Assembly: GCA_964036295.1 (NCBI GenBank) | Contig: OZ038464.1 | Coordinates: 872,501-936,500 of the forward strand | DNA: 64,000 bases | Direction of reading: 5' to 3' | DNA from: Plumapathes pennacea | Taxonomy: Eukaryota; Cnidaria; Anthozoa; Antipatharia; Myriopathidae | Shown: positions 12,989 to 64,000 of the stretch, one piece after another | How positions within the stretch are numbered: the stretch's first letter is position 1 | Layout of the letters: the number at the start of each line of letters is the position of its first letter | Made by a program: the position numbers and the translations under genes | The notes under the pieces: model-generated | What the model saw: the letters and a program-made list of their open reading frames with translations, nothing else | Told to the model about the DNA's origin: nothing | Database searches by the model: none

Positions 12989-13000
12989 CTTTGTATCAGG

Positions 13001-13064
13001 ATGAAATTCAGCGCTTTACCGCTTTGTTTTGCTTTCTTGTTGACGGCTTACACTGGCGCAGAAG
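13001..13064 (+). CDS. Gene A exon: signal peptide
   Basis: The exon encodes [20 protein letters not shown] plus two residues: one Lys, a hydrophobic core and a small-residue cleavage context. It is 64 nt, exactly as long as the signal exons of genes B, C and D, and is preceded by TTTGTATCAGG, the same pre-ATG context as in the paralogues. Confidence 0.9.
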
Positions 13065-16000
13065 GTAATACTAACCTCTTCAAACCTAGTTGCAAAAACA
13101 AACAAACAAAAAAAAAAAACAAAAACAAAAAAAGGGTCTCTATTGGGTGAATCTGGGATTTGCCGGACAAATTCAGTTTCGTTTACTGTACTGTACTTAC
13201 TGTGCATTTTCGAATGAGCCACTTACATAGTCATGCGAAGTATCAAAACAAACGAGTGTCCGTCACTTTAAAATCTTTCTGCAAAGCTTTAGGACGCCGT
13301 CCACACTAATCCGGATAAATTTGAAAACGGATATTTATTTATCCGTTTTGGCCTTCCATCCACACTAAGACGCGTTTTTGGTGAGCGAAAACGGATGTTT
13401 TCGAAAACACATTTTAGTGTGAACAGCAAAAACGACTTGAAAGCGGCAGTGTGAACGGAAAACTTTCGATGCGTTTTCATACGAAACGGCCGTTTTCAAA
13501 TTTTATCCGGATTAATATGGACGGGGCCTGAGATGTTTTTCTTCTCTTCAGTGGACCCGTGTTCTCAGTACAAGAAACGGACGGACGAAAGATTGGATAC
13601 GATGGGACCTGGCAATAATTGTGACAGATACACGATTTGGCAGAAGGAATGGTTTCGCTTCACAGGAAACTCCGGAGAACGAATGGCGGACTGGCCTGTC
13701 CCTGAGAAGCACTGTGGAACACAAGCAACTGGATGGCTGAAAGGCGGACATCCCACAGTAGCTGACGGCATTGTCCAGCGTAAAGTCTGCTATAACTTAA
13801 ATGGCGACACCTGTTACTGGGAAGACACTATCCAGGTCCAACAGTGTCCAGATGGTTTCTACGTTTACGAGCTCGTCAGGCCTCGACGTTGTTACACCCG
13901 ATACTGCGGGACTAATCGAGGCAAGTAGTTTCTGCTAGGTTCTTGAGTGGTGTAGCAGCTGTTGGTCTCTTCATAGGTTTCATGTGTGTAGAAGCCCCAT
14001 TGCTTTTAATTCTAGGGCTCTTGTTTGCTTGTTTGTCTTATTCAATGCTGCACTAACGTATCAGAGGTCCTGCATCGCCCAGTTCATATCTGCTAGTTTC
14101 CTCCCATACTAAAGTCTCATATTTTCTTCCATACGAAAGTCTCTTGATGTCCTGTCATACTAAAGTCTGTAATTCTCCGCCCATACTAAAGTTTTTTTTT
14201 TCTTTCCACATATTGAACCCCCATACTAACCTATCTTATAATCCTTCTATAAAATTCTTTATGTTCCTCCGAATTTGTTTCCTCCTTTTCATTTGTTTAC
14301 AGTTAAAATTTCGCCAGTCATTGGCCGCTTTTACTGTTTACATTATTTAGTCTTTCCTCATATTTCTGACTTCAAGCCGCCGTGTAATTTTCTTTTTACT
14401 ATATAAACACGAGTGTTTTACGAGAGAATGCACAAGCAACCTTGCAAGAGCGGGAAATGATACCATCGATATCCTCTATGAAAAATACGCCAGTCGGGTC
14501 CCGGATGTAGTTTGATTGTTGCGCACAGTATATTTTCCAGTATAACACTCGTGTCTATATAATAAAAGAAAATTACACGGCGACTTGAAGTCAGAGAAAC
14601 GAGGAAAGACTAAGAAATGTGAACAGTAAAAGCGACTGATAACTGGCGAAATTTGAACTGTAAACAAATGGAAGGGAGAAAATAAGTTGTAATAAAATGT
14701 AACCTTTCTTCTTAGGAGGATGGGCGGATTGGACGGCCTGGGGCGAGTGTAGTGAGCAGTGCGGGGGTGGAGAACAATCCAGAACTCGTACTTGCACCAA
14801 TCCCCCACCGGCCAATGGTGGTGAAGCATGCCCTGGGGACGACAAGGAGACTCGTGAATGCAACATTCAAGGATGCCCAGGTAATTAAAGAGACACGTGT
14901 TATGTCACGCACTTTTCATTGGCTGGGATAACAAAACTAAGCACTTGGTTAAAAAAATATGAAATTGTTGCTTGTTTCAAATATTTCAGTTGACGGTGGC
15001 TGGAGTGATTTTGGAGACTGGGGCGATTGTAGTAAGTCATGCGGTGGAGGAGAACAATCCAGAAATCGTACATGCACCAATCCCCCACCGGCCAATGGTG
15101 GCGCAGAGTGCTCTGGGGAAGACAAGGAGACTCAGGCATGCAACATTCAAGGCTGCCCAGGTAATTTAGAGAGACGTGTTATGTCACGTGTTATGTCACG
15201 CACTTTTTATTGGCTGGGAAAACAAAAATAAGCACGTGGTAAAGAGTATGAAATTATTGCTTGTTTCAATTTATTTCAGTTGACGGTGGCTGGAGTAATT
15301 TTGGAGACTGGGGCGAGTGTAATAAGTCATGCGGTGGAGGTAAACAATCCAGAAATCGTACTTGCACCAATCCCCCACCGGCCAATGGTGGTGAAACATG
15401 CCCTGGGGACGACAGGGAGACTCGAGAATGCAACACTCAAGGATGCCCAGGTAATTTAAAGAGGCACGTGTTATGTCACGTGCTGTGTTACGCACTTTTC
15501 ATTGGCTGGGAAAACAAAAATATGCACGTGGTAAAAAAGTATGAAATTATTGCTTGTTTCAATTTATTTCAGTTGACGGTGGCTGGAGTGATTTTGGAGA
15601 CTGGGGCGAGTGTAATAAGTCATGCGGTGGAGGTAAACAATCCAGAAATCGTACTTGCACCAATCCCCCACCGGCCAATGGTGGTGAAACATGCCCTGGG
15701 GACGACAGGGAGACTCGAGAATGCAACACTCAAGGATGCCCAGGTAATTTAAAGAGGCACGTGTTATGTCACGTGTTGTTACGCACTTTTCATTGGCTGG
15801 GAAAACAAAAATATGCACGTGGTAAAAAGTATGAAATTATTGCTTGTTTCAATTTATTTCAGTTGACGGTGGCTGGAGTAATTTTGGAGACTGGGGCGAG
15901 TGTAATAAGTCATGCGGTGGAGGTAAACAATCCAGAAATCGTACTTGCACCAATCCCTCACCGGCCAATGGTGGTGAAACATGCCCTGGGGACGACAGGG

Positions 16001-19000
16001 AGACTCGAGAATGCAACACTCAAGGATGCCCAGGTAATTTAAAGAGGCACGTGTTATGTCACGTGTTATGTTACGCACTTTTCATTGGCTGGGTTAACAA
16101 AAATAAGCACGTGGTAAAAAAAGTATGAAATTATTGCTTGTTTCAATTTATTTCAGTTGACGGTGGCTGGAGTAATTTTGGAGACTGGGGCGAGTGTAAT
16201 AAGTCATGCGGTGGAGGTAAACAATCCAGAAATCGTACTTGCACCAATCCCCCACCGGCCAATGGTGGCGTAGAGTGCTCTGGGGAAGACAAGGAGTCTC
16301 GAGAATGCAACACTCAAGGATGCCCAGGTAACTACGATCTAGTATGCCTGTTCGTTCCTTCAGAATCAGGGGCTGTATTCACAAAACGTTTCGTAAGAAC
16401 GTTTGTACGAATAAATAGTCTTGTAACTGCTAAAACCTAATAACTCAGCCAAGAAAAATCAATACGATTCTATTCACAGGTACAGGTCAGTTCAGTACAT
16501 TTGACAGGTGAAAAGGCGTTTCTCCGTCGTGTGTTCACCTAAATTTTGACTCAGCGGAGCTGTTAGTTTAGTGTAACGCTCGTAAAACCTACAGTAGAAC
16601 TCCGCTAACTCGAACCCCCAGGGGAAGCGAGAAATGGTTCGAGATAGCGGGAGTTCGAGTTAGCCGATAGTAAATGACTGAAAGGGAAATCCAAGGGAAG
16701 TGGGTTTGAATTCGAGATAGCGGGAGTTCGAGTTAGCCGATAGTAAATGACTGAAAGGGAAATCCAAGGGAAATGGGTTTGAATTCGAGATAGCGGGAGT
16801 TCGAGTTAGCCGATAGTAAATGACTGAAAGGGAAATCCAAGGGAAATGGGTTTGAATTCGAGATAGCGGGAGTTCGAGTTAGCCGATAGTAAATGACTGA
16901 AAGGGAAATCCAAGGGAAGTGGGTTTGAATTCGAGATAGCGGGAGTTCGAGTTAACCGAGTTCGAAATAGCGGGGTTCTACCGTAATAACTTGGTCAAGA
17001 AAGTCGAAACTAGGACTCCATACTCAGCTACAGGTCAGTTCAGTACGCTTTCTATAACAAGTTGCGCGCAAGAAAAACGGGGTTTGCACACGAGGTGAGT
17101 TTGATCGCGAGTTGAACAATTACATTGTAAATCGCGATGAACGCTTTCCAGCGGAAGTGACGTAAAAACGTATTGGCCGTGCGAAGGACGGCGTGTACGC
17201 GGAGCCAATCAGCTTCGATGTTAGGGCGCGTGGGGTCTGACGTATGCGAACGCTTTGACAATAACAAGAAGTAGATATGAGCTTATTTCAAAAAAGCTGA
17301 AAAATGGGATCCGTTACTTCTCGGCTAAACCTTAAACAACGCTCGGTAAGCCGGGCCTTTTTTCATCAAAAGGTAATGGCCTAACGGCATATAGATGTAT
17401 TTGACGTTCAGATAGAAAGTTAGCATTTACTACTGAAAGGAAGCCAGGAACTCATTGAAAATTGGTTATTGAAGTCACCAGAACAAATGCTTGGTTTGTT
17501 TTCTAGTTGATGGCGGTTGGAGTGATTTTGGGAACTGGGGAAACTGCAGCAAAACATGCGGTGGAGGAGAAGAACGGCGCACGCGCTACTGTAACAACCC
17601 GGCTCCTGCTTATGGCGGCGCAAATTGTTCTGGTGAAGACTTTGAGACTCGGGCTTGCAATGAGAGTCCTTGTCCAGGTGAATAGCATCAGTCGATAGTT
17701 GATTATGATTATTTTGCCTTTTCTTCATCTTCATCCTTGGTCCTCCTCGTTCTCTATTCATCTGCAACCTCTACTAGATGATTTACGCACAGGAGAAAAA
17801 CAGTGTGGCCTATCAAATGACAGCTGTTGATGAGTGTGTTCTCTTGTCACCGTCTTTTTTTTTTTTTTTTTTTTTTTTTCTTGAGTTTTACCATTAAATT
17901 CACATTCGATTGTATCTCGCGAAAATTTCGTAAAGTGATTGCTGAATAAATCGTCTAAGTTGATATTTGTTTATTTGCAGCGGTTGATGGCGGCTGGAGC
18001 AAATGGACCGATTATGGACCTTGCAATAAAGATTGTGGTGGCGGGAAAATGACGCGGACGCGCACATGTGACAACCCGCCTCCTTCCGAAGGTGGGAAAA
18101 ATTGTAAAGGCAAGAAAAAGCAGACGAAGGATTGTAACACGGATCCCTGTGAAGGTACGTTAAAAGGGCCCTCTGAACGGCGCAGGCTTTTCTTTCTAGA
18201 AAATCCCAGGATAAATTTGGTTTCCATGAACATGAAAGAACGTATTTAATCAAAAGAAATAGGCTAGTAGCGCTTTTAGATAAAAAGAAAAAGAACTAAT
18301 CTTCTCAACAAACGAGTCGGATGGGAGACGGTTGTTATATATTATTCGACTTTTAGGGCTGCCTCCCCCCCCCCCCCCCCCCCCCCTGAGCAAATTGTCT
18401 AACTTAAAATTTGTGTATTTTCAGAGGTTGATGGCGGCTGGAGCAAATGGACCGATTATGGACCTTGCAGTAAAGAGTGTGGTGGCGGGAAAAAGACGCG
18501 GACGCGCAAATGTGACAACCCACCACCCTCCGGAGGCGGGAAAAATTGTAAAGGCAAGAAAGAACAGACGAAGGATTGTAACACGGATCCCTGTGAAGGT
18601 ACGTCAAAAGGGCCCCCTCAACAGCACAGCCTTTTCTTTCTAGAAAATCCCAGGATAAATTTGGTTCCCATGAACATGAAAGAACGTATTTAATCAAAAG
18701 AAAAATAGGCTAACAGCACTTTTAGATAGAACAGAATTAATCTTTTCCTTAAGCGAGTCAGATGGAAATGGGTTGTTATTTATTATTCGACTTGCAGGGT
18801 CCCCCATAAATGGCGGATCCATGAACAGAAATTCATTTCTATTTCACTTGCTTTATAAGAACATTAGTTTCTTTTCATCTAAAAGTACTACTAAGCTATT
18901 TTTTTTCTTTTGATTTATTACGTTTTTTTCGTGTTGGGAACAAAGTTTAGCCTTGGATTTTCCAGATGCAAACAAAATCATCAATTAGCTGAGAGGACCT

Positions 19001-21962
19001 GTTAAAACTTGTGTTGAACGTGCAGATGGCGAGCTGATTTACAAATGCCTGAGGCAAGTTGCAAAATGGAAATTTCTTGTAATTCAGCGATTTCGCGTGT
19101 GATCTGCAGGTGATGGCGGCTGGAGCAAATGGACTAAATATGGATCTTGCAGTAAAGAGTGTAGTGGCGGGAAAAAGACGCGAACGCGCAAATGTGACAA
19201 CCCACCTCCTTCCGAAGGCGGGAAAGATTGTGAAGGCAAGAAAAAGCAGACGAAGGGTTGCAACACGGATCCCTGTGAAGGTACGTCAAAAGGGCCCCCT
19301 CAACCACAGACTTTTTCTTTCTAGAAAATCCCAGGATAAATTTGGTTCCCATGAACATGAAATAACGTATTTAATCAAAAGAAAAATAGGTTAGCAGCAC
19401 TTTTAGATAGAACAGAATTAATCTTTTCTTCAAACGAGTCGGATGTGAGGCAGTGTGGCCGAGTGGTTAGGGCGCCGGACTTGAAATCCGGAGGTCCCAG
19501 GTTCAAGTCCCGCTCTGACCACTAACTGAATTTGCAACACGTTAGCCCCGGGTTCAAATCCTCGGCCACACTATGTAAATCGCCAACTGGTTAGCCTCCG
19601 ACCAGTTGGGATTCTTAACGAATTTGCGTTCAGTTTATGATATTTGGTTTCTGCATTTCAAGTCTCCCCAATTTGCACGGCAGTGCTAAATACATTGAGA
19701 CTTAAATAAAGTGATCCCCGAACGAAGTGAGGGAAATACTCACGACACTAATGCAGTACTATTATACCGCCTACTTGGAGACTCCAAGCCTGTCGCCATC
19801 TCGAAATTTAACGTTGTCTGTCAGTCTGGCGTACGACTTTAGGCGCGGTTACCCCGCTAACCAATAACAAAGGCCGGATCGATCACGTGTGCCCTATTGT
19901 TTTACTCGGAATAATTGAGAAATTAGATTTGAACGAAGCAACAATATATCGTAGCTGCGTTCACGAAAATGGAAAACTTAAAAACTGAAGAACTTGAAAC
20001 ACAACAGTCTCGCGAAGCTCGTCTTCAAATAAGAAGGGAACAGGCACGAGCAAGGCGAAATCGTGAAACGAGCGAACAACGCCAAATTCGTCTCTAGAAA
20101 AGGTGACAATCCTGTTATGATCGGCAGCATCATAAACAGAAGCGTGCCGAAGAAACGACTCCGCAAAGAAAACAGCGCATGAATGCCGATCGAAAGCGAC
20201 ATGAACAGAAGCGGGTAACGCAGACAACTCCGCAAAGAGAACAGCGCTTGAAAGCAAATCGGAAACTTCAGGTGCAAAAGCGGGCCGAAGAGAAGACTCC
20301 GCAAAGACAACAGCGCATGAATGCCGACCAAAAGCGACAAGAACAGAAGCGGGCAACACAGGCAACTCCGCAAAAAGAACAGCGTTTGAAAGCGAATCGG
20401 GGCCTTCAGGAGAAAAAGCGGGCCGAAGAAAAGACTCCGCAAAGACAACAGCGCATGAATGCCGACCAAAAGCGACATGAACAGAAGCGGGTAACACAGA
20501 CAACTCCGCAAAGGGTACAGCGCTTGAAAACAAATCGGGAGCTTCAGACGCCGTTTTGTGTTAAACTCAGATACTTATTTAGAAAGGACAAGCAACAAAG
20601 GTTAGTCAGTGGAAATCGAACAATCACCGTGACAAATATATTCTATCCCGTATAGCTTGTAACTCGATCACTTCAAGAATGTATTAAAATCTGTATGCTG
20701 ATCATTTTCCCTCGAAGTATTGTTTTACTACGCTTCTGTCGCCAGTTTCGGCTACCGTATTCGCTCAGAGCAACCGGAACTTGGAGTCTTGAATGATTTA
20801 GTCAAATGTCTTATTTTTCTGTAATCTGACACGCGGTGATTGCAGCGAGAATCGTTCACAAGCCCTTAGAAGTATTACTGGGTCTGAAGCCCGTGTATAA
20901 TTTGAAGTAAACTGTTCAAGTTTTGCTTTGATTCTGGGAGAAATCTTGCTGTTTTGAGTGGGTTCACATACAAAACAATTCGAGCCTATTAAATATGCAT
21001 GCCTGAGTCTGGTGCATGCAATCCAGAGTAAAAACAAATCGCACAGGAAGCCTATTTAATTGTACTGCCTATGAATTCAAAATTGGAAAATCAATGTTCC
21101 TTTTTTCCCGTACTACGACGGCCGACCAACTTCAAACTTTGAGTATTAAATTTTGAGAACGTGCTTGGCAGACTGTATGAATTAATTTGACGTGCCGTGA
21201 CCGTGGGAAATACGTACTTCGTCACGCAATCGATTCTTTTTTCAACGCAAAAGTATAACACACACCATTCTTTTCTCCTTCCTTTGCGTGTAGCACTTGA
21301 GTTCGAAGAAAAGATTGAGTCAACATTTCGGTAAAACAAAGGCTACTCTTGTTGGGAGTTACCAAAGTAAAAGTCCCATCAATGGCAGAGTGAGGGGGTA
21401 TCTGCGATTATCGTATTTCTAGTTTATTTATTTTATTATTTTTATCGAAACGGCCGGTTGTTATTTATTATTCGACTTGCAGGGTCCCCCATAAATGGCG
21501 GGTCCATGAACAGCAATTCATTTCTATTTCACTTGCTTTATAAGAACATTAGTTTCTTTTCATCAAAAAAGTGCTACTAACCTATTTTTCTTTTGATTTA
21601 TTACGTTTTTGTCGTGTTGGGAACCAAGGTTAGCCTTGGATTTTCCAGATGCAAACAAAAACATCAATTAGCCGAGAGGATCTGTTAAAACTTGTGTTGA
21701 ACGTGCAGATGGCGAGCTGATTTACAAATGCCTGAGGCAAGTTGCACAATGGAAATTTCTTGTAATTCAGCGATTTTGCGTGTGATCTGCAGGTGATGGC
21801 GGCTGGAGCAAATGGACCAAATATGGACCTTGCAGTAAAAAGTGTGGTGGCGGGAAAAAGACGCGGACGCGCAAATGTGACAACCCACCTCCTTCCGAAG
21901 GCGGGAAAGATTGTAAAGGCAAAAATAAACAGACAAAGAAGTGTAACACGAAGCCGTGCTAA
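13001..21962 (+). CDS. Gene A: secreted D8C + 11-TSR protein
   Basis: Predicted secreted protein of 770 residues: signal peptide, one D8C domain, then eleven TSRs. Coding exons: 13001-13064, 13552-13920, 14716-14880, 14990-15160, 15280-15450, 15573-15743, 15863-16033, 16157-16327, 17507-17677, 17981-18154, 18425-18598, 19110-19280, 21793-21962. All junctions are phase 1 and the sum is 771 codons including stop. The D8C family occurs in uromodulin and GP2; TSRs are extracellular adhesion modules. TSRs 1-7 carry the Trp ladder ([12 protein letters not shown] type); TSRs 8-11 are lysine-rich ([11 protein letters not shown] type). The stop TAA sits where sister TSR exons have GAA and is followed at once by a donor (G|GTAGGT), suggesting a nonsense change in a once longer gene. 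The D8C exon uses a GC donor (GAG|GCAAGT). Confidence 0.85.
13291..13528. mobile_element. MITE in gene A, just before the D8C exon
   Basis: The ends ACGCCGTCCACACTAATCCG and, in reverse complement, GCCCCGTCCATATTAATCCG are inverted repeats that extend through GGATAAAnTTTGAAAACGG. The element ends only 23 bp before the D8C exon (13552), so the polypyrimidine tract used for splicing lies just outside it. Confidence 0.8.
13552..13920 (+). CDS. Gene A exon: divergent D8C domain, 8 of 10 cysteines
   Basis: The framework blocks [24 protein letters not shown] and [10 protein letters not shown] identify the family. The Cys after the WYRF block (GSC in paralogues) is replaced by DW, and the second Cys of the CC pair is Tyr (DTCYW). 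All other D8C exons in the window keep ten cysteines. The exon ends CGA G|GCAAGT, a GC-AG type donor. Confidence 0.85.
14716..16327 (+). CDS. Gene A exons TSR1-TSR6
   Basis: Six TSR exons (14716-14880, then starts at 14990, 15280, 15573, 15863 and 16157, each 171 nt). TSR3-TSR6 are almost identical in exon and intron, with starts 290-294 bp apart. TSR2-TSR6 contain SRNRTC, giving an N-glycosylation sequon (NRT) that the TSRs of genes B-D lack. They also contain CNKSCGGG or CSKSCGGG, which fits the POFUT2 O-fucosylation consensus. Confidence 0.9.
14990..16327. repeat. 290-bp tandem exon+intron units
   Basis: Five units of one TSR exon plus about 120 bp of intron repeat at 290, 293, 290 and 294 bp. 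The intron motifs GTGTTATGTCACG and CACTTTTCATTGGCTGGG are conserved in each. This is recent tandem duplication. Confidence 0.95.
16590..16985. mobile_element. pogo/Tigger-like MITE carrying a 73-bp minisatellite
   Basis: The ends TACAGTAGAACTCCGCTAAC and, in reverse complement, TACGGTAGAACCCCGCTATT are inverted and flanked by TA, as in Tc1/mariner-pogo elements. Inside, GAGATAGCGGGAGTTCGAGT recurs at 16641, 16714, 16787, 16860 and 16933, an exact 73-bp period. A related sequence lacking the element occurs near 48350-48390. Confidence 0.85.
17507..17677 (+). CDS. Gene A exon TSR7
   Basis: This TSR differs from TSR1-6: [20 protein letters not shown] and [11 protein letters not shown]. It most resembles the penultimate TSRs of gene B (40019-40189) and gene C (57208-57378), suggesting a position-specific orthologous module. 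CSKTCGGG fits the O-fucosylation consensus. Confidence 0.9.
17981..21962 (+). CDS. Gene A exons TSR8-TSR11, lysine-rich
   Basis: Exons 17981-18154, 18425-18598, 19110-19280 and 21793-21962. Each has the form GGWSKWTxYGxC followed by [16 protein letters not shown] and a [12 protein letters not shown] tract. They are very basic and resemble the last TSR of genes B and C. The final exon ends AAG CCG TGC TAA. The large intron 19281-21792 is swollen by a SINE and a Helitron-like element. Confidence 0.88.
18365..18386. repeat. Poly(C) tract in gene A intron
   Basis: About 22 C residues between TSR8 and TSR9, about 40 bp before the acceptor. A poly(T) tract of similar size lies at about 17852-17879. 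Confidence 0.9.
19446..19714 (+). mobile_element. tRNA-Ser-derived SINE
   Basis: The head reads like a tRNA, with A box TGGCCGAGTGG (19456), a CTTGAAA anticodon-like loop (UGA, Ser) and B box GGTTCAAGTCC (19500). A second B-box-like GGTTCAAATCC occurs at 19551. The body continues through GTTAGCCTCCGACCAGTTGG to an A-rich end (TTAAATAAAGTGA). The acceptor stem does not close, so it is not a functional tRNA gene. Confidence 0.75.
19715..21422 (+). mobile_element. Helitron-like element copy 1 (in gene A intron)
   Basis: It starts TCCCCGAACGAAG after an A and ends ATCGTATTTCTAG before a T, giving 5'-TC and 3'-CTAG (CTRR) ends with an A|T target and no target duplication, as in Helitrons. It shares both ends and most of its length with 55405-56789. 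It carries a degraded Arg/Gln/Lys-rich reading frame (from about 19969, internal stop near 20094, open again 20179-20655) with repeated [15 protein letters not shown] units. That region resembles the basic N-terminus upstream of the Rep/helicase in cnidarian Helitron proteins (inference). No Rep or helicase is present, and I find only a weak CGATTATCG palindrome near the 3' end. Confidence 0.65.
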
Positions 21963-22540
21963 GGTAGGTTGTATAAACATCATCGTGATGTACTTTGATT
22001 ATACAAACAAAACAAAAAAACTGCAGTAGATTCACCGGCGACAAACATGCGTTCCGTATAATTTAGAAATTGTTTTTGTGAAGTCTTTCTTAACCAGAGG
22101 TCTTCTTTCAACAGAAACCACGATTCTTGGACAATCCCATGGATGTCAGGAAGGGGCTTATTTTTAACGGGGGACATAAACATACATAAGAATCCTGAAA
22201 TTGCAAAAATCTTGATTAAAATTGTTCTATCATGCAGATTAGCACTCGCCGATTTTTGACTATTACATTTAATTCCTTCAGTTCTCTTTTGAGAAATTGT
22301 TACTTGAGTATATGCCATTTGTTTGCGTTCTTTCTAATTTCAAACCCTTTCAGACCTTTCACTCCTAAGCTCAATGTTCAGATTCTCCCAACCTTTTAAT
22401 CGGTTTGCAGAACTGGATCAAACCCTTACGTGGGATGTATTTCTGGTGACTAGAAACTAGAGGAGAAAATTGATTGATCACTCTTAGTAATTTAAAGGGT
22501 TAATCGGCTTACTCTGCGAAAACCCGGTGTCACAGGGTCG

Positions 22541-22577
22541 GTGGGGAGGGGGGGCAGCGGGGCGGGGCGGGGCGATT
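22541..22577 (+). other. G-rich block, possible G-quadruplex
   Basis: At least four G runs of three or more (GGTGGGGAGGGGGGG, GGGGCGGGGCGGGG) occur within 40 bases in an otherwise AT-rich intergenic region. Confidence 0.5.
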
Positions 22578-22725
22578 CCCAGGATTTGTATCCCTCCTAT
22601 TACTGCCTTGTCCATCTTAAAAAATGCTGGATTTCACGCGCGAAGCTCTGCGCAAGTATTGCATTTTATGACCCATCAAATATTTCCTCCTGCGCGTGAT
22701 TGGTAGAATCGTGACACGTGACCGA

Positions 22726-22753
22726 ATAACGTCCGCTCGTGAGCGGACGTTAT
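22726..22753. other. 28-bp perfect palindrome
   Basis: ATAACGTCCGCTC and GAGCGGACGTTAT are perfect 13-nt inverted arms around GT. The function is unknown. Confidence 0.8.
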
Positions 22754-26227: not shown

Positions 26228-26239
26228 ATTTGTTTCAGG

Positions 26240-26303
26240 ATGAAGATAAGCGTTCTTACGCTGTGCTTTGCTCTCTTCTTGGCGTCCTACACGGGCGCAC
26301 AAG
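26240..26303 (+). CDS. Gene B exon: signal peptide
   Basis: It encodes [20 protein letters not shown] plus Gln and ends in phase 1 before GTAAAG. The acceptor TCTGCAG (exon from 26228) and a second AG directly before GATG give two possible acceptors that differ only in 5' UTR. Confidence 0.9.
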
Positions 26304-43693: not shown

Positions 43694-43920
43694 TAATTAA
43701 ATGAGCAATCAATATTTCCACCGAAACAGGGTTTCCAGCTTTAATTCCCAGGTGAGTTTTTCTCGGGCAAGAACATGCAATTACTCGTCTAATTAAAAAC
43801 TTACAGGGAGTGTCCCAGTTTGCTTCATTTTCAGTTTGGCCTTCGTGGTGGTTGGAGCATGTAAAGCACGCTGGATTGTGTAAGTAGTGTTCCTTTCCTG
43901 TTGTTGGTCAGACAACGTTA
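42460..43920. repeat. ~1.5-kb flank duplicated downstream of genes B and C
   Basis: Collinear with about 58260-59510, including GCGCAAGATAGTATGCGTAA, the CTTTCCTCAACAGAGCCC block, TAAGAGCAAGCAAGYTAAGCG and the promoter module at its end. The gene-plus-flank unit was therefore duplicated as a whole. Confidence 0.85.
43694..43879 (+). promoter_or_regulatory. Predicted promoter and exon 1 of gene C (conserved module)
   Basis: TAATTAAATGAGCA (43694) and CTCGTCTAATTAA (43784) are the paired sites. The segment then reads CAGTTTGCTTCATTTTCAGT and TTGGCCTTCGTGGTGGTTGG and ends GGATTGT|GTAAGT at 43879. It would splice to 48913, so the 5' UTR intron is about 5 kb. Confidence 0.6.
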
Positions 43921-48924: not shown

Positions 48925-48988
48925 ATGAAGATAAGCGTTCTTACGCTGTGTTTTGCTCTCTTCTTGGCGACCTACACGGGTGCACAAG
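48925..48988 (+). CDS. Gene C exon: signal peptide
   Basis: It encodes [20 protein letters not shown] plus Gln. It differs from gene B by one residue (Ser to Thr), with the same phase-1 end before GTAAAG. Confidence 0.9.
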
Positions 48989-51900: not shown

Positions 51901-54900
51901 CGGCTTGGGGCGAGTGTAGCAAGGAGTGTGGTGGCGGAGAACAATCGAGGAGTCGAACTTGCACCAATCCCCCTCCGTTGAATAATGGAGCAGACTGTTC
52001 AGGATCAGACAAAGAAGTCCAGGCATGCAACGAGCAGGACTGTCCAGGTGAACTTTATACTCGGCCAATAAAAGCACTTTTACGGCGCAACATTTCTGGC
52101 AATATTGACAAAATTGTTCTGGGGTAAGGGTAGACACACGGGCACTTATTGCGCGCAACGTCGTGCTTTGCTAATCTTTTAACTTTCAAGCTCAAAAGGC
52201 AGATTCTCTTGACCTTAAAGAAAGGTATGTATAAGTGATATTTTGAAAATTGATGTTTCAATCAACTTTTATCTAATCAAGGTAACTATTGCCAAGTTCT
52301 CCATACTGTTGGATATATCTCTTGTGAGAAACTCAAGGATAAAATGAAGTTGATCACTTTTAAAAGTAAAAAGGTTGCATTATATTCAGTGCTCTCCAAT
52401 CTTTTTATCTTCTTCTACATATTTCTGTTGTTTTATTGTTTTTTTTTTCTTTGTTTTTGTTTTCTTTTAACAGTTGGCCCCGAGTGTAACTCATATACTA
52501 AGCTAAGTGACAAGACCAGACTGGACTCGTACTCAGGAAGTGTTTCTTGTGACCAAAGTACGATCCAGAAAGGCTGGTACCGCTTCACGGGAGAATCCGG
52601 AGAGCGCATGGCAGGTTCTTGTACTCCTGAGGGTTACTGCGGAACACACGCGACCGGATGGCTGAACGGGGAACTGCCGAGCACTACGGGAGAAGGAATT
52701 GTGACCCGTCAGGTGTGTTATCACTGGAGCGGCCAGTGTTGTCTCTGGAACAACAATATCAGGGTTCGCAAGTGTCCAGGAGGATTCTTCGTTTACGAAC
52801 TGGACAAACCACCAATGTGTAATTTGAGGTACTGCGGTAATAGCTCAAGTCTTGTACCGGGTAAGTAAACAAATGCCTTAGTTCAACTTGGCCGAGCTTT
52901 TCATACAGACTTGACAACTCACTCAAAGCATGATATAATATAGTATAATCATGACATGGTTTTGACAGTTGTTTGTCTGTTTTCAAGTTTTATTGCATTT
53001 TTATACGTATGTGCCACACCTCTTTTGTCGGTGTACAACCTGCTTTTTGTAGTGTATGGTGTTTAGTTTTTCGTCGTGTGAAAAGAAAATTGCGTCAAAA
53101 TTATATTAATACAACTATAGCGGCTCGGTGCTGCTTGAATCTGGGAAAGTAACTAACTGCAATGTTTTTTACCTTGTGCGCTTCTACTGCCGAAGTATCT
53201 GATTAAACTCTAAGTAAAGTCAGCAAAGCTTTTCGGACAGTCTAGTGTGGTAACTATTGAAATAGGTATTCAAACTAGTTCAAGACAAAAATCAGTGTGC
53301 AAATAAATGTAGACCCAGAAAACGATCCCTTCTACTAAAGTGGCTAACAGTTGTGCAATGTTCTGACGTCTACTGTTTGTATAAATATCGTTCTAGTTGA
53401 CGGTGGCTGGAGCGACTGGACGGCTTGGGGCGAGTGTAGCAAGGAGTGTGGTGGCGGAGAACAATCGAGGAGTCGAACTTGCACCAATCCCGCTCCGTTG
53501 AATAATGGAGCAGACTGTTCAGGATCAGACAAAGAAGTCCAGGCATGCAACACTCAAGACTGTCCAGGTGAACTTTATACTCGGCCAATAAAAGCGCTTT
53601 TACGGCGCAACATTTCTGGCAATATTGACAGAAAAGTTCTGGGATAAGGGTGGACACACGTGCACTTATTGCGCTCAACGTCGTGCCTTGTTTTAACAAA
53701 GGTTAAAACCTTTTAACTCTCAAGCTTAAAATGCAGATTCTCTTGACCTTTAAGGAAAGGATGTATAAGTGACATTTTGAGAATTGATGTTTTAATCAAC
53801 TTTCATCTAATCAAGGTAACTATTGCCAAGTTCTCCATACTGTACGATATATCTCTTGTGAGAAACTGAAGGAGAAAATTGAAGTTGATCAATTTTAAAA
53901 ATAAAAGGGTTGCATTATATTCAGTACTCTACAATCTTTTTATCTTCTTCTATATAATTCTGTTGTATATTGTTTTTATTGTTTGTTTGTTTGTTTGTTT
54001 GTTTGCTTTTGTTTTTTTTCTTTTAACAGTTGGCCCCGAGTGTAACTCATATACCAAGCTAAGTGACAAGACCAGACTGGACTCGTACTCAGGAAGTGTT
54101 TCTTGTGACCAAGATACGATCCAGAAAGGCTGGTACCGCTTCACGGGAGAATCCGGAGAGCGCATGGCAGGTTCTTGTCCTCCTGAGGGTTACTGCGGAA
54201 CAGACGCGACCGGATGGCTGAACGGGGAACTGCCGAACACAGTAGGAGAAGGATTTGTGACGCGTCAGGTGTGTTATCACTGGAGCGGCCAGTGTTGTAA
54301 CTGGAACAACAATATCAGGGTTCGCAAGTGTCCAGGAGGATTCTTCGTTTACGAACTGGACAAACCTCCAGTGTGTAATTTGAGGTACTGCTCAAGTCTT
54401 GTACCGGGTAAGTAAACAAGTGCTTCATTTCAACTTGACCGAGTTATTCATACAAGATTAACAACTCACTCAAAGCATGATATAATGTAGTATAATTATG
54501 ATATGGTTTTGACAGTTGTTTGTCTGTTTTCAAGTTTTATTGCATTTTTATACGTATGTGACCCACCCTCTTTTGTAGATATACAACTTGTTTTTTGCAG
54601 TGTTTAGTGTTTTGTTTTTTCGACGTGTGAAAAAAAAAATTACGACAAAAATATAGTGATACAACTATAGCGGCTCGGTGCTGCTTGAATCTGGGAAAGT
54701 AACTAACTGCAATGTCTCTTACCTTGTGCGCTGCTACAGCCGAAGTATCTGATTAAACTCTAAGTAATGTCAGCAAAGCTTTTCGGACAGTCTAGTGTGG
54801 TAACTATTGAAATAGATATTCAAACTAGTTCAAGACGAAAATCAGTGTGCAAATAAATTGGGACCCAGAAGACGATCTCTTCTACTGAAGTAGCTAACAT

Positions 54901-57900
54901 TTGTGCGATGTTTTCTTTGTCTTGTCTCATTTTCCTTTTCTCCTCCTTCCCTCTTCGCTTCCCTCCTTCACCTCACCTTCCTTTTCGTTCTTTTTTCTTT
55001 TTTCTTTCTTCTTTCCTTTTCTCTTTCCATTGAAGGCATGTTCTTCTCTCCTCGTCTTGTCTAATTTTCATTTTCTCCTTCATTCCTCTTCGCTTCCCTT
55101 CTTCATCTCCTCTCCCGTCCCCTCGTGTTCTATTTTCTCACATCTCCTCTCTTCTCTTCCCCTCTCCTTTCTTTTCTTGGCTTATTTTACATTTGCCCTC
55201 TTTCTCCCAGTTGACGGCGGCTGGAGCGACTGGACGGCCTGGGGCAAGTGTAGTAAGCCATGCGATGGCGGAGAACAATCCAGGAGTCGCACTTGCACCA
55301 ATCCCCCGCCAGAACATGGCGGGAAACCCTGTTCAGGTTTAGATGAAGAGACGCAGCCATGCAACACTCAAGGTTGCCCAGGTGACTATAACACCAGCTT
55401 TTAATCCCCGAGCGAAGCGAAGCGAAGCGAAGCGAAGTGAGGGTAATAATCACGGCGCTAATGCAGCAAATTCGCTTTATGTGGAGACTCCAAGCGAGTC
55501 GCCATCTCGAAATCTAATGTTCGTCAGTCAGTCTGTCAGTCTGTCATAGGGCGACCTCTAAGGCAATGACGTAATAATAATTATCGATTAGCGTCAAAGC
55601 GAGGTCAAACAAAGGTTTGAACGAAGCAACAACTGTACGTAACTGCGTTCACGAAAATGAATTGAAAACTGGAAAACTTGACACAGCACGGTCTCGCGAA
55701 GCTCGTCTGCAAAAGAGAAGGGAACTAGCACGGGCAAGGAGAAATCGTGAAACAATCGAACAGCGCCAAATACGGCTAGAGAAAAGACGACAAACATTTG
55801 ATAACCGACAGCATCATGAACGGAAGCGTGCCGAAGAAACGGCTCCGCAAAGGGAACAGCGCTTGGAAGCAAATCGGGAGCTTCAGACGCCGTCTTGTGT
55901 TAAACTCAGATCCTTATTTAGAAAGGACAAGCAATAAAGGTTAGTCAGTGGAAAGCGAACAATCACCATGACAAATATATTCTACCCGTATCTTGTAACT
56001 CGATCACTTCAAGAATGTATTAAAACCTGTATGCTGATCATTTTCCCTCGAAGTATTGTTTTAATACGCTTCTGTCGCCAGTTTCGGCTACCGTATTGGC
56101 TCAGAGCAATCGGAACTTGGAGTCTTGAATGATTTAGTCAGATGTCTTATTATTTCTTTCAAAACTAAAACTGTAACAAATACTGTAATTTGACATGCGG
56201 TGATTGCAGCGAGAATCGTTCACAAGCCCTTAGAAGTATGACTAGGTCTGAAGCCCGTGTATAATTTGAAGTAAACCGTTCAAGTTTTGCTTTGATTCTG
56301 GGAGAAATCATGTTGTTTTTGAGCGCGTTCACGTACAAAACAATTCGAGCTCATTAAACATGCATGCCTGAGTCTTGTGCATGCAGTCCAGAGTAAAAAC
56401 AAATTGCACAGGAAGCTTATTTAATTGTACTGCCTATGGATTCAAAATTAGAAAATCAGTGTTTCTTTTTTTCCCGTACTACGACGGCGACCAACTTCAA
56501 AATTTGAGTATTAGATTTTGAGAACGTGCTTGGCAGACTGTATAAATTAATTTGTCGTGCCGACCGACCGTGGGAAATACGTACTTCGTCACGCAATCGA
56601 TTCTTTTTTTCAACGCAAAAGTATAACACACACCATTCTTTTTCTCCTTCCTTTACGTGTAGCATTTGACTTCGAAGAAAAGATTGAGTCAACATTTCGG
56701 TAAAACAAAGGCTACTCTTCTTGGGAGTACCAAAGTAAAAGTCCCATTAATGTCAGAGCGAGGGGTATCTGCGATTATCGTATTTCTAGTAAGTTTTAAA
56801 GTCAGGATTCAGACTTGACGTTACAGTATTATGCTCAAAATCAATCAATCAGAAATTGCAATGACAAATGATTCTACCTATTCAACTGTTTTCAGTCGAC
56901 GGTGGTTGGAGTGAGTTTGGGGACTGGGGAGAGTGCAGTGAACCTTGTGGCGGTGGAGAACAAGAACGAGTCCGCACTTGCACCAATCCCCCTCCGAGTA
57001 ACGGCGGTGCAGAATGCGTAGGCCCGGACCGAGAAATTCAGGGATGCAATGAAAGTCCTTGTCCAGGTAAGAGAAACGTGCATTGAGAGAAAGCTTTAAA
57101 AGTTTACGTAGAAAGACCATGAAACCGCGAGTCAGACATGGACGCAAAAAAATACAACATACAATGACAAGCAGACACGAACAGTTGTACCATTTTTGTT
57201 ATTTTAGTTGACGGTGGTTGGGGTGATTGGGGGCCCTGGGGAGAGTGCAGCAAAACGTGTGGTGATGGAGAGCAAAAGCGCATGCGCCAATGTAACAACC
57301 CCGCGCCAGCGTTTGGCGGCGCATCTTGCCCTGGAGAGGACTTTGAGACGCAAGCCTGCAATGAAGATGCTTGTCCAGGTGAATATAATCTCATGTCTTC
57401 ATCAGACGATGGCAGTGTGAAGCTTATGAAAAATTTAGAAATTTCTAAGAACCTGTTTGAGCGCACGTCATGCAAATCACATCGGATAGAAAAAAAAAAA
57501 GGTTTTTGGAACATTTTACGGAAAAAGAAACATTAAGGGAAGCGAACATGTGGGTTAAACTTTGGAATTGAGGGTTTGAGGCCGTTTTTCTCGGAAGAGT
57601 TGCTCTGCAAGAGTCGTCCTTTATCTAACTACAGTATGATTGTATAGCTTACATAAGTTCATTTTATGTTTTGCATTTCGTTTCTAAGTGCTCGAGCCAA
57701 AGTGACCAGTTTAAGATGTGAAGTAGTTGTGAGCAACTAACTTGTGAATATATTTTCAGTTGTGAATGGCGGATGGGGCAAATGGTCCAAATATGGTCCT
57801 TGTAGTAAGGCGTGTGGTGGCGGGAAAAAGGAAAAGACGCGCAAGTGTGACAACCCACCTCCTTCAGGTGGCGGGAAAAAATGCAAAGGAAAACCCACCA

Positions 57901-58022
57901 AGAAAAAGGGCTGTAACGAACAAGCTTGTGAGGAAGGTGAGTTGAAACTCATCCAGACCAAATCTAAACTCCATAGAAGGGTCTTTATTCTGTTCAACCT
58001 ATCAACCAATTTTCCTCTGTGA
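48925..58022 (+). CDS. Gene C: secreted 4x(D8C-TSR) + 3 TSR protein, 3' end altered
   Basis: Exons: 48925-48988 signal; 49353-49733 D8C1; 50357-50527 TSR1; 50954-51340 D8C2; 51877-52047 TSR2; 52474-52860 D8C3; 53397-53567 TSR3; 54030-54407 D8C4; 55211-55381 TSR4; 56896-57066 TSR5; 57208-57378 TSR6; 57760-57936 TSR7. All are phase 1 as in gene B. The WSC-like exon is missing: the corresponding downstream segment was replaced by about 240 bp of repeat sequence. If TSR7 reads through its donor, the frame stops at 58020-58022 and gives 961 residues. Splicing onward to an unknown exon, or even into gene D, cannot be excluded. D8C4 lacks three residues before the C-terminal SSLVPG. Confidence 0.82.
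49353..49733 (+). CDS. Gene C exon D8C1 (GC donor)
   Basis: It begins [20 protein letters not shown] and is orthologous to gene B D8C1. The motif after the CC pair is DLSNNIRV rather than LWNNNIRV. The exon ends AAA CCA G|GCAAGT, a GC-AG donor. Confidence 0.9.
50357..50527 (+). CDS. Gene C exon TSR1
   Basis: [20 protein letters not shown]: the second tryptophan of the ladder is followed by Met-Ala instead of Thr-Asp. It is orthologous to gene B TSR1. Confidence 0.9.
50530..53570. repeat. 1520-bp duplicated D8C-TSR unit in gene C
   Basis: Unit starts 50954/52474 and 51877/53397 are each exactly 1520 bp apart, with conserved introns (AAAGCACTTTTACGGCGCAA, CCATACTGTTGGATATATCT). A third, more diverged unit follows at 54030. 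Confidence 0.92.
50954..54407 (+). CDS. Gene C exons D8C2-D8C4 with TSR2-TSR3
   Basis: D8C2 and D8C3 are near-identical and 1520 bp apart, as are TSR2 and TSR3 (51877 and 53397). They differ from gene B D8Cs by [25 protein letters not shown] and [10 protein letters not shown]8C4 (54030-54407, 378 nt) has GTDATGW and GEGFVTRQ and a shortened RYCSSLVPG end; all ten cysteines remain. Confidence 0.9.
55211..57378 (+). CDS. Gene C exons TSR4-TSR6
   Basis: TSR4 (55211-55381) is orthologous to gene B TSR7 ([13 protein letters not shown]). TSR5 (56896-57066) matches gene B TSR8/TSR10 ([17 protein letters not shown]). TSR6 (57208-57378) matches gene B TSR12. Three gene B TSRs of this stretch have no counterpart. 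The TSR4-TSR5 intron carries the second Helitron-like element. Confidence 0.9.
55405..56789 (+). mobile_element. Helitron-like element copy 2 (in gene C intron)
   Basis: It starts TCCCCGAGCGAAG and ends ATCGTATTTCTAG, inserted between A and T. The paralogous gene B intron (about 38260-38280) aligns without a gap across the junction (GATTTTATTGAGTTTTAAAG versus CTTTTAA|TAAGTTTTAAAG), so insertion added no target duplication. An intact 106-codon basic ORF lies at 55617-55937 ([20 protein letters not shown]...). A GAAGC microsatellite sits near the 5' end (about 55411-55440). Confidence 0.72.
57760..58022 (+). CDS. Gene C terminal exon: TSR7 with read-through tail
   Basis: [20 protein letters not shown]: the O-fucosylation Thr seen in gene B TSR13 is Ala here. 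After the exon border at 57936 (GAG GAA G|GTGAGT) the frame stays open for 27 more codons ([20 protein letters not shown]...) to TGA at 58020. It is unclear whether this donor is still used. Confidence 0.55.
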
Positions 58023-58250
58023 TTTGTGATTACAAGATGGCGGCTGGCTTTGCTCGGCCAGTCCAGTGGTAATTTGGTGACTGTGATGCCGTTAAGATGT
58101 CTGAACGCGTCAGGTTTCTGACCTTTTCTTTTTATTGTCTTCTGGATGGCTGGGGAATCTTTGTGAGCGCTTTGAGGGAAAAATGCAAGCGCTGCAAGGA
58201 CGAATATTGGGGAGCGCGGAAATGACCGTCCGGCCGCCATGAGTGTCAGC
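58005..58250 (-). mobile_element. Repeat-derived insertion replacing the WSC-exon region
   Basis: This segment has no match in the gene B flank and interrupts the B/C collinearity between about 57995 and 58260. On the minus strand it contains an open frame starting MAAGRSFPRSPIFVLAALAF with stop-free sequence for about 75 codons. It looks like a fragment of a dispersed element, of class unknown to me. Confidence 0.45.
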
Positions 58251-59282: not shown

Positions 59283-59468
59283 TAATTAAATGAGCAATCA
59301 ATATCTCCACAGGAACAGGGTTTCCAGCTTTGTTTTCCAGCTGAGTTTTGTTCGGACAGGAACATGCAATCCCTCGTTTAATTAAAAACAGGGAGTGCCC
59401 CAATTTGCTTCATTTTCAGTTTGGCCTTCGTAGTGGTTGGAGCACGTAAAGGACGCCGGCTGGATTTT
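59283..59468 (+). promoter_or_regulatory. Predicted promoter and exon 1 of gene D (conserved module)
   Basis: TAATTAAATGAGCA (59283) and CTCGTTTAATTAA (59373) form the paired sites. The predicted exon reads TTTGGCCTTCGTAGTGGTTG and ends GGATTTT|GTGAGT at 59468. It would splice to 62002. Confidence 0.6.
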
Positions 59469-62001: not shown

Positions 62002-62016
62002 GTTTTTTTTTTCAGG

Positions 62017-64000
62017 ATGAAGATTAGTGTTTTTACGCTGTGCGTTGCTTTTTCCTTGGCGACCTACACAGGCGTGCAAGGTAAGACGCCTTATAAGAGA
62101 CTGAAAGTTAATTGCTCTTGATCTTTATCCAACGGTGTATTCTTTGTTTGATAGCTGATGAATGCTCGTCCTACGAAACCCTGGACGACGCCACCAGATT
62201 GGATTCTTATTCTGGCGGACAGGCTACATGTGATCAGTGGGACGGCTTTAAGAAGGACTGGTACCGATTCACTGGTGCATCCGGAGTAAACATCGCGGTA
62301 TCTTGCCCTGAAAAAAACCGCTGCAGGACACACGCAACTGGATGGATGCAAGGCGAACACCCCTCAGTAGAAGAAGGAATTGTGACGCGTCAAGTGTGTT
62401 ATCACTGGGGCAGCAATTGCTGCAACTGGAAAAACAATATCAGGGTTCGCCAATGTCCAGGAGGGTTCTTTGTGTACGAGCTGGATAAACCTCCAGCTTG
62501 TCATCTGCGGTACTGCAGTTCCAGTTCTAGCGTGCTTCCAGGTAAAGGAACACGGATTTTATTGTCGCTAATCATTTCATGTCTACGAAAGAAATCAACG
62601 AGAATTACCTTGTTCCTGTTGCTTGGAGCCTTTGCAGCCTGCCTTCTGATTATTTCCAGTGTAGTTTCCGTCCAGAATATTATCTGCACTTAGGATAGAC
62701 GAGAATATGGCGGGAAATACGTGGCTACAAGCAACTGCTCGTTGACTGGGCAGAAAGAAAAGCAGTCACCAAAATAAAAAAGCAGATTTTATTTGGCGTT
62801 TCCCTTCGGCAGTACACAACTCATCGCTCTTTTGTATCATTTTTGTTTCAGTCGACGGTGGCTGGAGTGATTTTGGAGAATGGGGCGAGTGTAGTAAGCC
62901 GTGCGGTGGCGGAGAACAATTCAGAAGTCGCACTTGCACCAATCCCCCACCGGCCAATGGTGGCGCACAGTGTTCTGGGGACGACAAGGAGACTCAGGCG
63001 TGCAACACTCAGGACTGTCCTGGTAAATTAATCAAAATCAAATTCTTAGTTTTCCTGTTTTTGACTTTCCAACCTTTTTCAAAATACACAATTAAGGGCA
63101 GACCTTCCTATGTACAGAAGAGAAGAGTTAAACCGAATTTTTTTTGTTCTAAAGTTAACCCTGAATGCTCGTCATACAAAACCCTGAACGACGCCACCAG
63201 ACTGGACTCTTACTCTGGCGGACAGGCTACATGTGATCAGTGGGATGGCTTTAAGAAGGACTGGTACCGATTCACCGGCGCATCAGGAGAGAACATTGCG
63301 GTTTCTTGTCCCGAAAAGAACCGCTGCAGGACACACGCAACTGGATGGATGCAAGGCGAACACCCCTCAGTAGAAGAAGGAATTGTGACGCGTCAAGTGT
63401 GTTATCACTGGGGCAGCAATTGCTGCAACTGGAAAAACAATATCAGGGTTCGCCAATGTCCAGGAGGGTTCTTTGTGTACGAGCTGGATAAACCTCCAGC
63501 TTGTCATCTGCGGTACTGCAGTTCCAGTTCTAGCGTGCTTCCAGGTAAAGGAACACGGATTTTATTGTCGCTAATCATTTCATGTCTACGAAGGAAATCA
63601 ACGAGAATTACCTTGTTCCTGTTGCTTGGAGCCTTTGCAGCCTGCCTTCTGATTATTTCCAGTGTAGTTTCCGTCCAGAATATTATCTGCACTTAGGATA
63701 GACGAGAATATGGCAGGAAATACGTGGCTACAAGCAACTGCTCGTTGACTGGGCAGAAAGAAAAGCAGTCACCAAAATAGAAAAGCAGATTTTATTTGGC
63801 GTTTCCCTTCGGCAGTACACAACTCATCGCTCTTTTGTATCATTTTTGTTTCAGTCGACGGTGGCTGGAGTGATTTTGGAGAATGGGGCGAGTGTAGTAA
63901 GCCGTGCGGTGGCGGAGAACAATCCAGAAGTCGCACTTGCACCAATCCCCCACCGGCCAATGGTGGCGCACAGTGTTCTGGGGACGACAAGGAGACTCAG
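62017..64000 (+). CDS. Gene D: secreted D8C-TSR repeat protein, partial
   Basis: Exons: 62017-62080 signal ([20 protein letters not shown]...); 62155-62541 D8C1; 62852-63022 TSR1; 63155-63544 D8C2; 63855 to the window end, TSR2 (incomplete). All are phase 1. The D8Cs differ from genes B and C by [36 protein letters not shown] and [14 protein letters not shown]. Introns are short (74-310 bp). D8C1 and D8C2 are nearly the same protein; the unit repeats at 1003 bp including the intron. After each D8C the frame stays open into the intron for about 51 codons, ending in a hydrophobic stretch. The gene continues beyond the window. Confidence 0.85.
62155..64000. repeat. 1003-bp duplicated D8C-TSR unit in gene D
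   Basis: The D8C exon ends 62541 and 63544 and the TSR starts 62852 and 63855 are each 1003 bp apart. The intervening intron sequence differs at only a few positions. Confidence 0.93.

Follow-up and report, generated by a model that had tools for sequence, protein, structure and literature searches.

A cluster of six D10C-TSR genes

The window (the whole 64,000-nt stretch of DNA analysed here) holds three whole genes and the start of a fourth, all on the plus strand, which belong to a cluster of six adjacent genes (A to F) that extends ~29 kb beyond the window, the last, gene F, ending near window position 92,950. The genes differ in their content of D10C and TSR exons (D10C+TSR: gene A, 1+11; B, 7+13; C, 4+7; D, 5+9; E, 2+5; F, 2+6). 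A preliminary description of this DNA had counted four plus-strand genes with 14 D8C and 33 TSR exons; within the window these counts are exact, and the exons match the Pfam models. Its figure of at least 2+2 for the fourth gene holds inside the window, but gene D in full continues to about 70,407, carries a WSC-like module in addition to its D10C and TSR exons, and is followed by genes E and F. The alternating D8C-TSR array that it described is present in the other genes but not in gene A, which has one D10C followed by TSRs only. The signal exon that it took to be common is confirmed as a set of related exons at 13001, 26240, 48925 and 62017, those of genes B, C and D being 52–62% identical to that of gene A. 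The features in the window are given below; each TSR listed matches TSP_1.

Gene A
13001..13064, +, signal-peptide exon
13552..13920, +, D10C exon, 8 Cys (without C3 and C6), GC-AG donor
14716..14880, +, TSR 1
14990..15160, +, TSR 2
15280..15450, +, TSR 3, 290-bp tandem unit
15573..15743, +, TSR 4, 290-bp tandem unit
15863..16033, +, TSR 5, 290-bp tandem unit
16157..16327, +, TSR 6
17507..17677, +, TSR 7
17981..18154, +, TSR 8, basic
18425..18598, +, TSR 9, basic
19110..19280, +, TSR 10, basic
21793..21963, +, TSR 11, basic (+12), in-frame stop directly after the final Cys

Gene B
26240..26303, +, signal-peptide exon
27257..27637, +, D10C 1, GC-AG donor
28412..28582, +, TSR 1
29002..29388, +, D10C 2
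29002..35714, +, 3.36-kb two-pair block, two copies (29002-32356 and 32357-35714), 99.31% identical
29916..30086, +, TSR 2
30929..31315, +, D10C 3, same protein as D10C 2
31804..31974, +, TSR 3
32357..32743, +, D10C 4, same protein as D10C 2
33274..33444, +, TSR 4
34287..34673, +, D10C 5, same protein as D10C 2
35162..35332, +, TSR 5
35715..36101, +, D10C 6, same protein as D10C 2
36618..36788, +, TSR 6
37335..37721, +, D10C 7
38075..38245, +, TSR 7
38379..38549, +, TSR 8
38963..39133, +, TSR 9
39237..39407, +, TSR 10
39707..39877, +, TSR 11
40019..40189, +, TSR 12
40686..40862, +, TSR 13, terminal, basic (+12)
41651..41952, +, C-terminal WSC-like module exon with stop

Gene C
48925..48988, +, signal-peptide exon
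49353..49733, +, D10C 1, GC-AG donor
50357..50527, +, TSR 1
50954..51340, +, D10C 2
51877..52047, +, TSR 2
52474..52860, +, D10C 3
53397..53567, +, TSR 3
54030..54407, +, D10C 4
55211..55381, +, TSR 4
56896..57066, +, TSR 5
57208..57378, +, TSR 6
57760..57936, +, TSR 7, terminal, basic (+10); gene end provisional

Gene D
62017..62080, +, signal-peptide exon
62155..62541, +, D10C 1
62852..63022, +, TSR 1
63155..63544, +, D10C 2
63855..64000, +, TSR 2, cut at the window end (exon end 64025)

The spliced models of genes A to C contain no internal stop, the sole stop being the terminal one of gene A. The exons are consistent with phase 1-1 and AG acceptors, in a gene-model search that permitted phase 1-1 exons only, and a GC-AG donor is used at the first D10C exon of genes A, B and C. 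Read-through of the last donor in genes C and E gives a predicted 28-residue tail. A conserved block downstream of genes A to E (e.g. 43680-43895) was considered as a terminal exon and rejected, since the alignment, read by eye, shows no conserved frame. A sigma-70 promoter scan of 12000-13100 returned chance-level counts and is not meaningful for animal DNA. On the mitochondrial contig, a cox3-like frame lies directly upstream of an intron-bearing cox1, which is the sea-anemone mitochondrial order.

The D10C domain and its relation to uromodulin and GP2

D10C is known chiefly from mammalian uromodulin (UMOD) and GP2, in which it is the domain that catches bacteria. The earlier D8C assignment was borne out by profile search: all 14 D8C exons in the window scored above the Pfam D8C_UMOD cut-off in a search of the genome (E 3.4e-26 to 3.3e-18), and the same model was matched by all ten exons scanned singly, a set that left out gene B D10C 3–6, which are identical in protein to its D10C 2. 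Ten cysteines are present in 20 of the 21 D10Cs of the cluster, the exception being the gene A copy with eight, and the two that this copy has lost (C3 and C6) are partners of one disulfide in GP2. The 'D8C' exons are better named D10C. When one D10C copy was compared with the PDB, UMOD and GP2 were the only matches at E up to 1 (4.5e-32 to 4.2e-29).

The cluster shares the D10C domain with uromodulin and GP2, but genes B to F encode many D10Cs per protein, TSRs lie alongside them, three genes add a WSC-like tail, and neither a ZP exon nor the FimH-binding sequons are found. None of the 21 cluster copies has a sequon at the UMOD N275 or GP2 N65 position (the N275 position is E in all 21), and none of 80 ZP matches falls in the cluster (C3:885-965 kb). 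These results do not support the route to bacteria by way of uromodulin and GP2 that the preliminary description had implied. Because both FimH-glycan sequons are absent, D10C would be unlikely to act here as a mannose decoy, and the likeness to uromodulin is, as far as the sequences indicate, confined to the domain level. Elsewhere in the genome, D10C exons adjoin ZP exons at three places on C1 and C4, two of them with tandem D10C; unlike in the cluster, ZP exons there lie downstream on the same strand, giving a neighbourhood that is uromodulin-like as judged by exon adjacency alone.

TSRs and the C-terminal tail

All 33 TSR exons of the window match TSP_1 (E up to 0.001; the last is truncated by the window end), and six cysteines are found in each of the 51 TSRs of the cluster. 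WxxW is kept in 30 of these 51 and C-x2/3-(S/T)-CG, which we take to be the O-fucosylation motif of TSRs, in 15, and CSVTCG occurs in none. TSRs are also borne by coadhesin. In each of the six genes the last TSR has a net charge between +10 and +13, and the non-terminal TSRs lie at −2 to −8, except for gene A TSR 8–10 (+3 to +5). From their charge alone, the basic TSRs may bind polyanions.

Although the earlier inventory of domains was right as to D8C and TSR, it overlooked an additional C-terminal exon in genes B, D and F (41651-41952 in gene B), which has a conserved acceptor and encodes the WSC-like module. Near genes A, C and E, tblastn found nothing better than E 0.18 for this exon. Not every family member needs the tail, since genes C and E show none and the stop of gene A lies in a TSR. 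The gene B copy of the module had no Pfam match, and a PDB search was likewise without success; four of four relatives match Pfam WSC below the cut-off (E 9.8e-6 to 8.1e-3). By hand count, 17 of 54 module matches overlap above-cut-off WSC matches (two of the 17 only with in-frame neighbours), and none of the eight closest does so; the module is linked to WSC members through intermediates. A profile of the module retrieved one match from the PDB, an unrelated histidine kinase at E 0.28, and a single-sequence structure model of the gene B copy was poor (mean pLDDT 52.7), too weak to support a search by fold. Sugar binding by the tail is possible.

Exon orders read without gene models at two loci on C5 and in one region on C7 show a D10C followed by 4, 3 or about 24 TSRs and, last, a WSC-like exon. 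In contrast to the cluster, these loci have one D10C only and no alternation, and this order is perhaps the older architecture. A gap of 3.8 kb interrupts the C7 run, which may comprise two genes.

Copy-number change and selection

The unit that duplicates is the D10C-TSR pair. In gene B, a 3.36-kb two-pair block is repeated at 99.3% identity and five D10Cs are identical in protein; more generally, the arrays expanded within genes, while the C-terminal TSRs remain orthologous by position across genes. The proposal in the preliminary description of a multivalent secreted family with recent domain-level copy-number change is supported. Since the exons are phase 1-1, changing the copy number of the pair would be easy. 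Part of the near identity among repeats could be an assembly effect.

The highest D10C omega was 0.94, between genes B and C. A loop patch of D10C, picked after viewing the alignment, was considered as a target of diversifying selection and rejected: comparison of nonsynonymous with synonymous columns gave p = 0.07 (B/C/E), 0.25 (D/F) and 0.79 (all but A), and testing whether the patch was enriched in nonsynonymous columns gave p = 0.004, 0.61 and 0.35 for the same sets. Among TSRs, omega exceeded 1 in 3 of 689 pairs with dS >0.05, all three with dS near 0.06, and diversifying selection is not claimed from them. Taken over both domains, any indication of diversifying selection is weak.

Comparison with known multi-TSR proteins and proposed role

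Tentatively, and with confidence that comes near to an even chance, we propose that the cluster encodes secreted, disulfide-rich, matrix- or mucus-anchored multivalent proteins of adhesion or recognition, rhamnospondin-like in plan. The sequence of each gene shows a signal exon, D10C-TSR pairs arrayed on the N-terminal side in a number that varies by gene (gene A having a single D10C ahead of its TSRs), and a conserved TSR block that closes with a strongly basic TSR, followed in B, D and F by the WSC-like module. These last two parts, the basic TSR and the module, would tether the protein to polyanions or polysaccharides, as in mucus, glycocalyx or matrix, and the array would present many copies of one D10C face for high-avidity binding of a repeated target. 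Because the UMOD and GP2 N-glycan sites are absent, D10C probably binds via a protein surface and not as a mannose decoy. The most likely role would be that of an adhesive or recognition component of the epithelial mucus or surface matrix in a sea anemone or another cnidarian, with either microbes or host matrix as a possible target.

According to the portions of the cnidarian and uromodulin literature used (PMC8930769, PMC5446238, PMC12549020, PMC6626399, PMC4877951, PMC4820225, PMC4229989, PMC5571214), known cnidarian multi-TSR proteins are produced in mucous gland cells or bear lectin domains. Rhamnospondin of Hydractinia, predicted to be secreted like its fellow rhamnospondins, and Tsrp2 of Hydra resemble the cluster proteins as multi-TSR proteins with an extra domain of lectin type, but in them the lectin is one that binds rhamnose or galactose, and these portions mention no D10C; in the cluster, none of 31 SUEL matches falls, and no SUEL-lectin exon was found. 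HyTSR1, with 48 TSRs and made in granular mucous gland cells, and the cnidarian properdin-like proteins share the long TSR arrays but are described there as having TSRs only, whereas the cluster alternates D10C with TSR. Among the top-listed open-licence papers, none dealt with a D10C-TSR repeat protein as judged by titles and abstract openings.

A somewhat unlikely alternative is that the proteins are innate-immune opsonins or microbe traps, rhamnospondin- or properdin-like, in which the D10C array and tail bind microbes and the TSRs recruit phagocytes. Rhamnospondin, a proposed microbe binder according to the parts of the papers used, joins TSRs to a lectin domain, Tsrp2 is called rhamnospondin-like, cnidarian TSR-only proteins are compared there to properdin, and two uromodulin-like transcripts are highly expressed in Nematostella nematosomes, whose cells engulf E. 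coli and beads; nevertheless, the FimH-type glycan sites and CSVTCG (0 of 51 TSRs) are both absent and diversifying selection is not firm. The roles in immunity or symbiosis that the preliminary description suggested are conjectural. We regard as unlikely a purely structural part in adhesion or matrix, such as pedal-disc glue, wound gel or mesoglea, in which the proteins perform no recognition and copy number tunes length and stickiness. Identical repeats and purifying selection would suit a structural array. The same partial accounts report, for the Exaiptasia pedal disc, enrichment of the TSP-1 type 1 superfamily and upregulation of a uromodulin-annotated gene, and, for Nematostella, a uromodulin that is raised in wounds and occurs in adult mesoglea; however, those uromodulins are named by annotation, no D10C-TSR protein is shown in these accounts, and the search for ZP exons found none in the cluster. 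Nematocyst content or capsule proteins built of repeated disulfide modules are improbable, as no minicollagen-type region was noticed by eye in the gene models. A coral skeletal organic matrix protein, suggested by the naming of coadhesin in coral skeletal matrix papers, is highly improbable if the mitochondrial order (cox3-like, then cox1) means a sea anemone, which has no skeleton.

A broader account of cnidarian surface recognition may be put forward, although its parts taken jointly are doubtful. The D10C-TSR cassette would evolve by unequal exchange, which sets valency, above a constant foot of basic TSR and WSC-like module that anchors the protein; copies would be kept identical within a gene while the D10C face diverges between genes; and D10C would originally have been a glycan-free binder of protein or sugar, the mannose decoy of mammalian UMOD and GP2 coming later.

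The cluster clearly exemplifies a cassette of two domains that varies in copy number inside genes, and the same genome retains the simpler D10C-TSR-WSC-like order and D10C-ZP neighbourhoods for contrast. Arrays of D10C repeats that lack the mammalian glycan sites raise a testable question, that of the original ligand of D10C. Should these proteins reach the mucus, control of microbes at the cnidarian surface would be a candidate function.

Gene models and composition of the D10C/TSR cluster

The genome containing the window comprises 290 Mb in 24 contigs, and the window, on contig C3, carries on its plus strand four genes (A-D) with 14 D8C exons (here called D10C) and 33 TSR exons. These counts, claimed in the preliminary description along with a common signal exon, proved exact on checking. 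The signal exons that open the four genes are related to one another:

13001, plus strand, gene A
26240, plus strand, gene B
48925, plus strand, gene C
62017, plus strand, gene D

All 33 TSR exons matched TSP_1, and the D8C match on which the preliminary description had been made to depend was significant for all 14 D8C exons, each passing the D8C_UMOD cut-off in a genome-wide profile search. Scanned one by one, 10 of 10 D8C exons matched, the other four being gene B copies 3-6, which are identical in protein to copy 2. Each domain is encoded by one exon with fitting phase 1-1 (the sole phase allowed in the model search for exons), and the spliced frames are open. GC-AG splice donors (AG/GCAAGT) were found at the first D10C exon of three genes; for the remaining exons GT donors alone were modelled, and one was located for each.

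13552-13920, plus strand, first D10C exon of gene A, GC-AG donor
27257-27637, plus strand, first D10C exon of gene B, GC-AG donor
49353-49733, plus strand, first D10C exon of gene C, GC-AG donor

The earlier count of "at least 2+2" for the fourth gene holds inside the window; with 50 kb fetched to its right, gene D is completed at 5 D10C and 9 TSR exons. Two further genes follow, E (2 D10C, 5 TSR) and F (2 D10C, 6 TSR), giving 21 D10Cs and 51 TSRs in the whole cluster, which, judged by sequence, is a well-formed gene family.

Several other features lie in or near these genes. A 290-bp tandem array at 14894-16331 (4.9 copies, 94% matches) has one TSR exon plus intron as its unit. Gene A has, between two of its TSR exons, a tRNA-Ser (TGA) prediction (19449-19520) and an STPR-repeat-like open frame (20107-20652; PF21107, E 0.0064, below cut-off), and an intron of gene C contains a second STPR-like frame (55581-55934, E 0.11); these are possibly a mobile element. 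Tandem repeats at 16638-16959, 390-640, 7389-7790 and 24718-24943 have periods of 73, 93, 94 and 68 bp, respectively; of these, the two with units of 93 and 94 bp, 7 kb apart, resemble each other. Past the cluster, at window position about 96,700-109,100, minus-strand open frames resemble, by eye, portions of a receptor guanylate cyclase, its ligand-binding region included.

D10C domains lack the FimH-relevant glycan sites

At E up to 1, the PDB matches of one gene B D10C copy were exclusively uromodulin (UMOD) and GP2, a second vertebrate D10C protein (E 4.5e-32 to 4.2e-29). The ten Cys are complete in 20 of the 21 cluster D10Cs; that of gene A has eight, with C3 and C6, partners of each other, both missing. 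The high-mannose glycan at UMOD N275 is reported as the FimH target, and N65 as required for GP2 binding. A sequon at either position is absent from all 21 cluster D10Cs, three of which have sequons elsewhere. In 57 D10C rows of this genome (45 distinct, some partial), the distinct rows hold 5 sequons vs a shuffle mean of 41 (0 of 500 shuffles as low, relatedness being uncontrolled), and VYEL occupies the N275 position in 43 of the 57, including all 21 of the cluster.

TSRs and a WSC-like tail

All 51 cluster TSRs have six Cys; WxxW is present in 30 and an O-fucosylation-type motif in 15, and CSVTCG in none. The final TSR of every gene has a charge of +10 to +13, TSRs 8-10 of gene A have +3 to +5, and all others -2 to -8. 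A further exon, which has a stop and a phase-1 acceptor that matches, is present in genes B, D and F; the gene B copy had been missed in the preliminary description:

41651-41952, plus strand, C-terminal tail exon of gene B

No such exon was found near genes A, C and E (tblastn best E 0.18). The window's own tail module alone had no match in Pfam and PDB searches, and its structure model was of unusably poor quality. For four tail relatives WSC was the best Pfam hit in every case, under cut-off (E 9.8e-6 to 8.1e-3). By hand count, 17 of the module's 54 genome matches overlap WSC matches over cut-off, the best of these matching the module at E 6.4e-13; of the eight matches closest to the module, none exceeds the WSC cut-off. 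We call the module WSC-like. WSC is described in the source paper as a putative carbohydrate-binding domain for which evidence of that function was lacking at the time of writing.

Copy-number evolution and selection

Downstream sequence showed stretches [B, C] and [D, E] to be copies of each other: the B-to-C and D-to-E intergenic parts are 95.4% identical over 3.7 kb, and C and E, compared downstream from their last TSRs, are 92.2% identical over 4.1 kb. The domain-level copy-number change proposed earlier was borne out by recent cassette duplication in genes B and D. Five gene B D10Cs encode the same protein (dN 0, dS 0 to 0.036). The same gene holds a repeated 3.36-kb two-pair block whose copies agree at 3,330 of 3,353 aligned bases; in gene D three D10Cs are identical and its first three 1-kb units match one another at 97.6-99.3%.

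The D10C tree unites all 21 copies of the cluster (support 99/99), with clustering inside this group of B2-6, of D1-4 and of the array copies of C/E; the gene A D10C sits on a long branch, which makes its placement uncertain. In the TSR tree, the terminal TSRs, and several others from the C-terminal part, fall together with those at the matching position in other genes. Array TSRs split into an A group, a B/C/E group in which genes are not separated, and a loose D/F set. A by-gene clustering test of TSRs gave a strong result for two genes only, 0 of 500 shuffles reaching as low a value for A and 10 of 500 for B. Across 195 of 210 D10C pairs median omega was 0.19, and across 689 of 1275 TSR pairs it was 0.18; thus purifying selection dominates. 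Omega between B and C array D10Cs was about 0.57-0.94, and a post hoc patch test gave no firm support for diversifying selection on D10Cs.

Related loci elsewhere in the genome

The genome contains at least 150 D10C and at least 150 TSP_1 matches; exon orders were read in 20 stretches. D10C, then TSRs, then a WSC-like exon occur at two loci on C5 and in one C7 region, and TSRs and tail with no D10C in the stretch on C1, C2 and C7. One place on C1 has just the tail exon, C2 and C12 have mixed D10C and TSR exons with no tail, and C11 has runs of D10C alone. One C11 stretch (1735001-1745000) holds 13 D10C exons about 0.6-0.9 kb apart and no TSR. ZP exons come next to D10C exons at three places, one of those on C1 having a single listed D10C and the other two several; these are uromodulin-like neighbourhoods:

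C1:24.925 Mb, same strand, D10C and ZP exons
C1:24.94 Mb, same strand, D10C and ZP exons
C4:2.78 Mb, same strand, D10C and ZP exons

On the minus strand of C9 (16535308-16537292), a 2-kb span with SUEL-lectin, TSR and WSC-like matches marks a possible rhamnospondin-like gene. In the contig with COX1, a frame read by eye as cox3 is immediately upstream of cox1, itself interrupted by a frame bearing LAGLIDADG-like motifs; such a gene order is one of sea anemones.

Comparison with known systems

The cluster differs from uromodulin in that no ZP exon was found in it and the FimH glycan sites are missing, so it is not uromodulin. Its plan resembles that of rhamnospondin and Tsrp2, in which TSRs are reported to be paired with a lectin domain; however, the profile search located no SUEL-lectin exon within the cluster, and for this reason it is not a rhamnospondin member. 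As the preliminary description had supposed, the alternating array is not a characterised system in the open-licence literature searched, where we found no paper describing this domain arrangement; the arrangement is built from known domains. The gene models establish a predicted plan of signal exon, N-terminal array of D10C-TSR pairs, conserved C-terminal block and, in three genes, tail, with recent cassette duplication. The proteins may be located at the surface or in mucus, where the strongly basic C-terminal TSR and the tail would dock the protein and the D10C faces would provide multivalent binding.
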